Assembly (NCBI GenBank): GCA_949948775.1
Contig: CATLHC010000003.1
Span: 1 to 64,000, forward strand
DNA length: 64,000 bases
Source of the DNA: an uncultured Oscillospiraceae bacterium
GTDB lineage: Bacteria; Bacillota; Clostridia; Oscillospirales; Oscillospiraceae
Direction: 5' to 3'
Below, in pieces: positions 24,201 to 44,754 of the stretch. The translations under genes were made by a program, and so were the position numbers. The notes under the pieces are model-generated. The model saw only the letters and a program-made list of their open reading frames with translations, was not told where the DNA came from and ran no database searches. Within the stretch, counting starts at the first letter, position 1; every line of letters starts with the position of its first letter.

Positions 24201-24229
24201 TTGAAATTCTCGACCGAATACGCTACAAT
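24201..24229 (+). promoter_or_regulatory. Promoter of candidate ncRNA copy 1
   Basis: TTGAAA (24201-24206), 17-bp spacer, TACAAT (24224-24229). Confidence 0.65.
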
Positions 24230-24237
24230 AAAGCCGT

Positions 24238-24443
24238 GAGACACAGAAGCAAAAGGCAGGACGCGGGGAGCACCACCTCCCCACGCCCCTATGCAGGAGC
24301 CACACCTCCCACACAGCAGAATTACTGCGCCCAAAAGCCATTATAACGGTTCCCCTTGAATTTATCAAGGGGAACGTCTTGGCGCGTGTGCAGCTTCTTC
24401 CGGCGGTGTAGGGAAAACTCCCTGCGCCGCTTTTGTTGTCTCG
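24238..24443 (+). ncRNA. Candidate structured ncRNA, copy 1
   Basis: Promoter plus terminator cggcggtgtagggaaaactccctgcgccgctttt; five hairpins; 5' GAGACA..CAAAAG pairs with 3' CTTTTG..TGTCTC; resembles locus 44719-44487. Confidence 0.7.
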
Positions 24444-24524: not shown

Positions 24525-25316
24525 GTGAAAAAATGGAATAGGGTGCTTGCCATATTGCTGGCGGTGACGCTGGCACTGGGACTGACCGCCTGCAGCAGCG
24601 CGGAGACGGGCCGGTCAGAGCAGCTTTCCGACGGTGAGCAGGACAGCCAGGCTCAGCGGGAGAGCGAAACGGAAAAGTCCTTGTATGAACATGGGATGGA
24701 TCTGATCGCCCTGATGCGGCAGGCGGCGGACAGCCGGGAGATGCTGGCGATCATGCTGAGCGTTGACGATGTGAGCATCATGGATGATATGATGGCGAGT
24801 GAGCCGATTGCATCCATGGCCCGCATGGGCCGCCAGTCGGACCTGAAGTGCTTATACCAGATTAAACTGTCTGCAGAGGCGTATCGGGAGCTGGCCGAGT
24901 CGCACCTGGAGGGGTTTGGATTGGATCCGGACTGCATTCCAGCGAAGGTAATGGAGCGGCGGTTAGATGGCCTGTGCGGCTCGATGCTGCTCAGTATCAA
25001 TTACGCGCTGACAGCTGAGGCGCTGACGACGAAGTACGGCTATGGAACGATGTATACCATGGCGCTTTATAACTCGTTTCAGTATTCAAATGCCTTTGTC
25101 AGCAGTGAGCTGAGGGAGAGCATGGCATACCTCTATGTCTTTGAAGGCGTGGCGGTCATGGAGACCTTCACGAAAAATGAAGACAATGTGGTGACCGTTA
25201 CGGCGGCTCCGGTGTTTGTGGATGAGATCGTGAACGGCTCGCGCTCGCAGATCGAGCAGCTGCTGCAGGACAAGCTGAGCGGCATTACGGTGGAGGTAAA
25301 CGACGTCACGCCGTAG
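24525..25316 (+). CDS. Putative lipoprotein of unknown function
   Basis: Signal peptide/lipobox ALGLTACSSA. Confidence 0.6.
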   Translation: MKKWNRVLAILLAVTLALGLTACSSAETGRSEQLSDGEQDSQAQRESETEKSLYEHGMDLIALMRQAADSREMLAIMLSVDDVSIMDDMMASEPIASMARMGRQSDLKCLYQIKLSAEAYRELAESHLEGFGLDPDCIPAKVMERRLDGLCGSMLLSINYALTAEALTTKYGYGTMYTMALYNSFQYSNAFVSSELRESMAYLYVFEGVAVMETFTKNEDNVVTVTAAPVFVDEIVNGSRSQIEQLLQDKLSGITVEVNDVTP

Positions 25317-43523: not shown

Positions 43524-44339
43524 TTACTCGACCTGTTCGATTGTCAGAGTGTAAGCGTCCATCCCAGGCAGGACGGACAAGATGGATTTCACCAGGGCTG
43601 CGGCTTCCTCGTCGGCTTTGGTGAGAAGCCCTTGGCCGATGGCTCGCTGTTCCATGATAAGCTTCTGCTCGGCAATAAACTCGTTATAATTATCAAATGT
43701 GACTTCGTTGAAAAGCCCGTTTTTTACCTCGACGACTGTGATGCTCTCTTGAGGGATGTTGTTGTCAGTGATCTGGCTGGGAGGCAGGGTGACGGTGATG
43801 GTTTGATTTTCATCATCTATGACAATATCAGCCTGACTTAAATCCACACCAGCTTTGATAGTCCCGTCGTAGGTTACAAGGATACTGTTCCCACTGAAGG
43901 GCCTTTCGATGCCCCATAGCCATGTTGCACTGCTTTCCCTTTTGTCTGCGTTGGTGTAGATGTATTCCTGTGTCACCAACTCTCGAATAGAGCCAAGCTG
44001 CTCCACCACGGTTTCACGGGTGATGATAGGAATCGTGGAGTGGGAATCGGCTTCCGGAGCCCTGTCTTTTAATGCTTCGATCAATTGATTTTGCCGCTCC
44101 AACTGTACTTCCTGCTGCTCAAGCTGTTCTTGCAGTTCCTTTTGGCTGTTATTAGAAAACCACAAAACCAACAACAGAATTACGAAAACAACTCCTACCA
44201 GTAAAATGACTGCTAATTTGCGGTGGTTCAAAACCCGTCTTATTGTTTTTGTAATTCCTTTTCTGCCATCTGTATCCTCGATAACTTCCCCCAAATCCTC
44301 ATCAAAGACATCTAAATCATACCTTTTGCGTGGTGCCAT
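43524..44339 (-). CDS. DUF4230 domain protein, N-terminal TM anchor
   Basis: MAPRKRYDLDVFDE...TM...VEQLGSIRELVTQEYIYT; listed start trimmed. Confidence 0.75.
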   Translation of the reverse strand: MAPRKRYDLDVFDEDLGEVIEDTDGRKGITKTIRRVLNHRKLAVILLVGVVFVILLLVLWFSNNSQKELQEQLEQQEVQLERQNQLIEALKDRAPEADSHSTIPIITRETVVEQLGSIRELVTQEYIYTNADKRESSATWLWGIERPFSGNSILVTYDGTIKAGVDLSQADIVIDDENQTITVTLPPSQITDNNIPQESITVVEVKNGLFNEVTFDNYNEFIAEQKLIMEQRAIGQGLLTKADEEAAALVKSILSVLPGMDAYTLTIEQVE

Positions 44340-44486: not shown

Positions 44487-44719
44487 GGAAAACAAAAACG
44501 CAGAGCAGGGCGAACCCTACACTGCGTAAGAAGCAAAGCTCTCATGCACACAACGGTGGGAAAACACAACAGCAAAACCCGCCCCTTGCGTGAAGGGCCG
44601 GAATGTCGTATAATACCCATGTGGTGTGGCCGATATTGGCCATTGTGTAGGTGGTGCTCTCACCTGCGCAGGCTTGCGGGTGTTGGCGCACCCGCAAGCT
44701 GCCGCATTTTTGTTTTTCC
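44487..44719 (-). ncRNA. Candidate structured ncRNA, copy 2
   Basis: Minus promoter TTGCAT-17-TATAAT (44754..44726); terminator ACGCAGTGTAGGGTTCGCCCTGCTCTGCGTTTTTGTTTT; 5' GGAAAAACAAAAATGC pairs with 3' GCGTTTTTGTTTTCC; aligns with locus 24238-24443. Confidence 0.75.
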
Positions 44720-44725
44720 AAGTCG

Positions 44726-44754
44726 ATTATAGCAGAAAGGCGTCGGCAATGCAA
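44726..44754 (-). promoter_or_regulatory. Promoter of candidate ncRNA copy 2
   Basis: TTGCAT, 17-bp spacer, TATAAT. Confidence 0.8.

Follow-up and report, generated by a model that had tools for sequence, protein, structure and literature searches.

Repeated leaders with convergent promoters and a terminator on each strand, probable antisense-controlled attenuators in an uncultured Oscillospiraceae bacterium and its relatives

Two homologous leaders in the window

The window, that is, the whole 64,000-nucleotide stretch analysed here (positions 1 to 64,000 of contig CATLHC010000003.1, assembly GCA_949948775.1, from an uncultured Oscillospiraceae bacterium), carries two copies of an element that lies directly ahead of a protein-coding gene. 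Copy A precedes a gene for a membrane-anchored DUF4230 protein and copy B, on the other strand, a gene for a predicted lipoprotein to which no Pfam family could be assigned. Their features are as follows.

Copy A
44726–44754, minus strand: sense promoter TTGCAT-17-TATAAT, predicted RNA start at about 44719
44487–44719, minus strand: sense leader RNA closed by P1, in which 5' GGAAAAACAAAAAUGC pairs with 3' GCGUUUUUGUUUUCC
44668–44717, plus strand: antisense terminator, consisting of hairpin P2 (GCAGGCUUGCGGGUG/CACCCGCAAGCUGC) and then CGCAUUUUUGUUUUU
44649–44665, minus strand: hairpin P3 (AGGUG/CACCU), the switch hairpin
44645–44651, minus strand: pre-emptor (antiterminator) strand CCUACAC, complementary to the terminator 5' arm and covarying with it
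44621–44717, plus strand: predicted antisense RNA of about 95 nt with three hairpins, deduced from its promoter and terminator
44586–44614, plus strand: antisense promoter TTGCGT (44586–44591)-17-TATAAT (44609–44614), predicted start at about 44621
44516–44522, minus strand: terminator 5' arm GUGUAGG, partner of the pre-emptor
44489–44527, minus strand: sense intrinsic terminator (hairpin 44527–44498, U-tract 44497–44489)
43524–44339, minus strand: gene for the membrane-anchored DUF4230 protein, starting 150 nt past the U-tract

Copy B
24201–24229, plus strand: sense promoter TTGAAA-17-TACAAT
24238–24443, plus strand: sense leader RNA with closing stem
24258–24289, minus strand: antisense terminator hairpin, then GCCTTTTGCT
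24307–24314, plus strand: pre-emptor strand UCCCACAC, with its partner GUGU-A-GGGA at 24406–24414
24340–24368, minus strand: antisense promoter TTGATA-17-TATAAT (11/12 consensus matches)
24402–24431, plus strand: sense terminator hairpin
24525–25316, plus strand: gene for the predicted lipoprotein (MKKWNRVLAILLAVTLALGLTAC...)

A sequence-only reading of copy A had proposed a structured non-coding RNA with paired ends and a second, homologous locus in the same window. The promoter, RNA start, hairpins, terminator and pairing ends that it described for 44487–44719 are all found in the sequence, the internal hairpins being P2, P3, GGCC/GGCC and GCCCTT/AAGGGGC, and the terminator hairpin (44527–44498, minus strand) being followed by TTTTTGTTTT. 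The -35 and -10 boxes of the sense promoter are kept at the same distance in homologs. The suggested homology of 24238–24443 was borne out: with a covariance model of 15 sequences, A and B among them, copies A (E=6e-28) and B (E=1e-15) were the sole matches in the whole genome, and the compensatory changes proposed between the two are real. Both folds are more stable than those of shuffled sequences (z=-6.7 for copy A and z=-7.9 for copy B, with 0 of 200 shuffles in either case). A further helix, UGCGG/CCGCA, in which the 5' region would pair with the segment behind hairpin P4, was left out of the model because it is broken or weakened in A, B and two homologs (L010, L029).

Rfam was searched at gathering and relaxed thresholds with the window copies and 20 diverse homologous loci, and no family, including the raiA, 6S and SRP RNAs that had been named as candidates, was reached at its gathering score, which places the element outside Rfam. 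The nearest sub-threshold match was symR (18 bits against a gathering score of 61, E 0.47), on the antisense strand at 44671–44700 (plus); GUGUUGGCGCAC is common to this match and the symR terminator hairpin. Our literature searches returned no description of the element; an unannotated motif in the supplementary tables of a metagenome survey (PMC8040213) may overlap it.

Distribution of the element

With copy A as a blastn query, relatives were found in 16 of 60 genomes, nearly all of the same genus. R1, a covariance model built on the first 134 nt, reached further. Counting the window's own genome throughout, R1 detected the element in 25 of 60 close relatives, in 36 of 199 sampled genomes of the order (21 of 110 genera, up to 11 copies per genome), in 11 of 292 genomes of the class, other orders included, and in 5 of 300 genomes of the phylum. 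A shorter model (R2), limited to the first 97 nt and without the antisense promoter, gave 56 of 397 genomes and 30 of 168 genera of the order. Outside the order the element is patchy in other orders and classes. Many host genomes are metagenome assemblies and the model E-values are rough; named hosts include Flavonifractor, Pseudoflavonifractor phocaeensis, Oscillibacter valericigenes, Evtepia gabavorous, Agathobaculum butyriciproducens, Dysosmobacter and Lawsonibacter.

There was no match to the element among 72,556 plasmid records, and one viral contig (IMGVR_UViG_3300027374_000319, L267) carries it, upstream of a RecD-like helicase gene and near serine recombinases. With zero plasmid matches and one weak phage record, a plasmid origin was discarded. 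Directly downstream of one further copy (L039) comes an OrfB/TnpB-type IS605 gene.

A convergent promoter and a terminator on each strand

Every full-length copy in the first set of homologs carries a sigma-70-type promoter on the opposite strand, inside the leader. Its -10 box (ATTATA in the sense orientation, TATAAT in the antisense one) is invariant in the first 15 homologs (15/15), usually with TTG 17 nt upstream. The linker ATTATACG, which the sequence-only reading had noted as shared by the two copies, is this -10 box, and it is invariant because it reads TATAAT on the other strand; the hairpin arm AAGGGGC overlaps the antisense -35 box. Scored against the consensus, the antisense promoter of copy A has 9 of 12 matches. 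Among 116 distinct elements, 109 reach at least 9 and 93 at least 10, with a spacing of 17 in 103, against 1.2% of shuffles scoring at least 10 in the first set. Since R1 contains the promoter region, the test was repeated on a second set of 45 further elements, 34 of which had been found with R2: 25 of the 45 scored at least 10 (shuffles, 1.1%), as did 19 of the 34 found only by R2, and the spacing was 17 in 38. Ten of the 45 scored below 9, so that some distant copies have a weak antisense promoter or none that is recognisable.

In copy A, the predicted antisense RNA is the complement of the sense leader's 5' half. To judge from its sequence, such a transcript would end at P2 and, behind it, the complement of the leader's A-rich 5' end (GCAUUUUUGUUUUU). 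Non-Watson-Crick pairs offer a test of the strand on which a hairpin acts. Read on the sense strand, P2 has 118 C.A pairs versus 27 G.U (equivalent to 118 G.U and 27 C.A on the antisense strand), whereas the homologous sense terminator hairpins have 167 G.U versus 12 C.A. The second set gave G.U:C.A ratios of 43:9 for P2, read as antisense, and of 60:8 for the sense terminator. From this asymmetry we conclude that selection keeps each hairpin as an RNA structure on one strand, P2 in the antisense RNA and the terminator in the sense RNA. The structured RNA of the earlier reading stands as a conserved structure, but probably not as a stand-alone RNA read from one strand, the homologs being bidirectional leaders with convergent promoters and two terminators. 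Together with the placement ahead of a gene and the antiterminator pairing described below, this anatomy fits an antisense-controlled attenuator and differs from that of raiA, 6S or SRP RNA.

The P2 loops of the 116 elements include reverse-complement pairs at similar frequency (CGCCAA 8 and TTGGCG 8, CGGCAA 6 and TTGCCG 4, CTGCAA 3 and TTGCAG 5), as if the loop had been inverted within the hairpin. The U-turn motif YUNR, taken as a sign of kissing loops, occurred in 47 of 116 P2 loops versus 28 expected, and in 34 P3 loops versus 45 expected; as the P3 loops fall below expectation, it was dropped as evidence. From P4 to the antisense -10 box there is a conserved segment, CACCGCA (44621–44627, minus strand, in copy A), which lies outside what an attenuator model explains and may contain the start site of the antisense RNA.

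Competing pairings in the sense leader

The strand after P3, CCUACAC in copy A, is the complement of GUGUAGG in the sense terminator's 5' arm, and across lineages the two covary. Matched versions of pre-emptor and arm include, beside CCUACAC/GUGUAGG, ACUCAACAC/GUGUUGAGU, CCAUACAC/GUGUAUGG, CCAUGCAC/GUGCAUGG, ACCUUACG/CGUAAGGU and ACCUCACAC/GUGUGAGGU, the B-type copies having UCCCACAC/GUGU-A-GGGA. When each pre-emptor was scored with its own arm versus arms swapped in from other elements, own partners were favoured at z=11.2 and 9.4 (two scorings, n=100) and at z=4.7 in the second set (n=40), while control regions in the same test ranged from z -1.2 to 0.7. A second exchange helix, between the other strand of P3 and the terminator 3' arm, gave z=5.8 and a modest z=2.4 in the second set. 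The antiterminator region had been chosen after inspection of A and L029, for which reason the first set is to be read as exploratory and the second as the check, and these permutation tests correct for relatedness only in part. Wobble counts told nothing about the antiterminator helix, since the scoring ran helices through free C.A steps at their ends.

Folding of nascent RNAs agrees with an exchange of partners. With transcription stopped in the terminator loop, 80 of 100 elements are predicted to pair the terminator arm with nt 57–86 (P>0.5), and in 81 of 100 the terminator prevails once it is present in full. Copy A departs from this, its full-length RNA being predicted to keep the antiterminator (P 0.98 versus 0.02 for the terminator), so that it may terminate only with help or kinetically. 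When nt 1–100 were blocked, mimicking antisense binding, the terminator formed in the predicted folds of both A and B.

The ends of the leader, which had been described as paired, also pair better with their own partners than with swapped ones (z=20 across 100 elements and z=12 across the 40 of the second set). Among the non-Watson-Crick pairs of this closing stem, P1, G.U outnumber C.A by 127 to 48, as expected if P1 forms, as this excess would have it, within the sense RNA. Our guess is that it protects the ends of the terminated RNA.

Genes downstream of the element

Among 100 elements with a clear terminator, 77 are followed by a gene on the same strand with a ribosome-binding site, its start lying 30–260 nt further on (median 95). 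A hydrophobic N-terminus is encoded by 62 of these 77 genes, versus 7 of 26 next genes. In 69 downstream proteins Pfam identified SLH (23), Cu_amine_oxidN1 (copper amine oxidase N-terminal; 16), BspA-type LRR (7), NPCBM (7) and transglutaminase-like (6) domains. The downstream gene usually encodes an exported protein, such as SLH, copper-amine-oxidase-N or BspA-repeat proteins and lipoproteins. In other orders the element is found ahead of Spo0E-like, DUF6809-like and SymE-family genes and serine recombinases. The SymE-family genes (PF08845, E 2.5e-12 to 2.5e-11) lie downstream of the element, not overlapped by it, in three loci (L276, L277, L282), and no SymE gene lies under copies A or B, which are followed by the DUF4230 and lipoprotein genes. 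Five loci of other orders (L276, L277, L281, L282, L283) have the element at the head of small operons that contain SymE-family genes and serine recombinases, that is, mobile elements.

Relation to known antisense systems

The closest parallel is the repC leader of plasmid pT181 and its 87-nt antisense RNA, RNAI (Novick et al. 1989), a countertranscript-driven attenuator in which a pre-emptor pairs with the terminator 5' arm unless the antisense RNA is bound (PMC5703833). Both systems have an antisense RNA opposite the leader, a terminator before the gene and pairing between pre-emptor and 5' arm; termination upon antisense binding would be a further likeness, with which the folding of the blocked leaders is consistent. 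Unlike pT181, which controls plasmid replication, the present element is multi-copy and chromosomal, precedes surface-protein genes and has the closing stem P1. Plasmid pIP501 likewise has a convergent promoter inside the repR leader, from which the 136-nt RNAIII induces attenuation (PMC4981023), but there the target is a plasmid rep gene and CopR is a partner. In Shigella, the 450-nt RnaG attenuates a surface-protein gene, icsA, through a kissing complex (PMC5394118); the kind of target is shared, although RnaG is a single locus on a virulence plasmid and not a repeated modular leader. SymR (RF01809) lies opposite the 5' region of symE and represses mainly translation (PMC1891008). The antisense position, the weak hairpin similarity and the SymE-family genes behind some homologs recall it, whereas its action on translation and the score of 18 bits against a 61-bit threshold set it apart.

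Of what characterises attenuators of the pT181/pIP501 type, we found the antisense promoter in the leader, the antisense terminator, the pairing of pre-emptor and 5' arm, and the intrinsic terminator that lies past the antisense target and before the start codon; control of a plasmid replication gene was not found. The element would appear to work like these attenuators, and is not filed as a member because its targets are surface-protein genes and it has no plasmid match.

Proposed mechanism and alternatives

We regard the element as probably the leader of the downstream gene and an antisense-controlled transcription attenuator. The sense promoter would start the mRNA, and P3 could open while the leader is being made. 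Once opened, its 3' strand (CCUACAC) would capture the terminator 5' arm (GUGUAGG), and its 5' strand (GCAGG) could pair with the terminator 3' arm (CCUGC); with both arms held by the strands of P3 no terminator would form and the surface-protein gene would be transcribed. The convergent promoter would produce an antisense RNA of about 95 nt, itself carrying GUGUAGG and covering P2 and P3. Settling on the nascent leader, this RNA would occupy the pre-emptor strand, so that the terminator folds and transcription stops, leaving an RNA of about 230 nt with its ends paired by P1. The promoters, terminators, competing covarying pairings, strand-specific selection of the terminators and gene context can be read from the sequences; the production of both RNAs, termination as a consequence of antisense binding and a signal that shifts the balance are what we infer.

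Four other readings were weighed. The leader could be a riboswitch-like attenuator in which a metabolite or an RNA-binding protein moves the switch and the antisense RNA is secondary; the conserved segments CACCGCA and GGCAG beyond the pairing model would fit this, as would the many different genes under one leader type, which resemble a regulon. We hold it to be unlikely, given that few features are as well conserved as the internal promoter and the second terminator and that no riboswitch class in Rfam was matched at threshold. Alternatively, the terminated sense RNA of about 230 nt might be a stand-alone structured small RNA that acts in trans, its level tuned by the antisense promoter. The strong fold and the specificity of P1, which behaves as a sense-RNA pairing, are in keeping with that, but the near-constant position before exported-protein genes, the covarying antiterminator and the retention of P2 as an antisense-strand hairpin make it quite unlikely.

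An arrangement akin to type I toxin-antitoxin systems, with the antisense RNA blocking translation or triggering decay as SymR does on SymE, would account for the SymE-family genes preceded by the element in other orders and for the weak symR-like antisense hairpin; it is nonetheless improbable, as roughly 200–300 nt, an intrinsic terminator among them, separate the end of the antisense region from the start codon, and the genes behind the window copies code for a DUF4230 protein and a lipoprotein and not for toxins. The multiple copies and inverted ends might even suggest a MITE-like mobile DNA element with P1 as its terminal inverted repeats, a reading to which we give hardly any credence: the conserved sense promoter lies outside the ends, the P1 mismatches favour G.U over C.A (127:48), pointing to RNA and not DNA, the copies in this genome are divergent, and the distance to the start codon is nearly constant.

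To our knowledge, attenuation under antisense control has been described for a few plasmid replication systems and for one surface gene, in Shigella. Here its logic would recur as a repeated, mostly chromosomal module, in up to 11 copies per genome, before S-layer-type and other exported proteins of common gut bacteria (Flavonifractor, Oscillibacter, Agathobaculum, Evtepia and relatives). Should antisense-controlled attenuation be confirmed, the element would offer a simple, testable mechanism by which a poorly understood order controls its surface proteins, and would supply RNA engineering with a natural library of sense/antisense pairs that are apparently matched. More speculatively, and as a possibility that we put forward with considerable doubt, it could be a large undescribed family of chromosomal sense/antisense switch leaders with copy-specific loops, by which gut Clostridia set surface proteins on or off independently in each single cell, an RNA-only control of surface variation that mobile elements use on SymE and recombinase genes.

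Tandem and shortened copies

In three genomes, leader and gene occur as tandem copies about 900–1,600 bases apart (L116 in G017, L080 in G018, L129 in G004), which suggests that the leader unit duplicates together with its gene. Shortened copies, in which the sense promoter and the first ~28–110 nt are left, were also seen (L016, L017, L019, L022, L025, L028 and L030, as well as L020). They precede small membrane-protein genes and have lost the antisense promoter and the sense terminator together, as if permanently derepressed.
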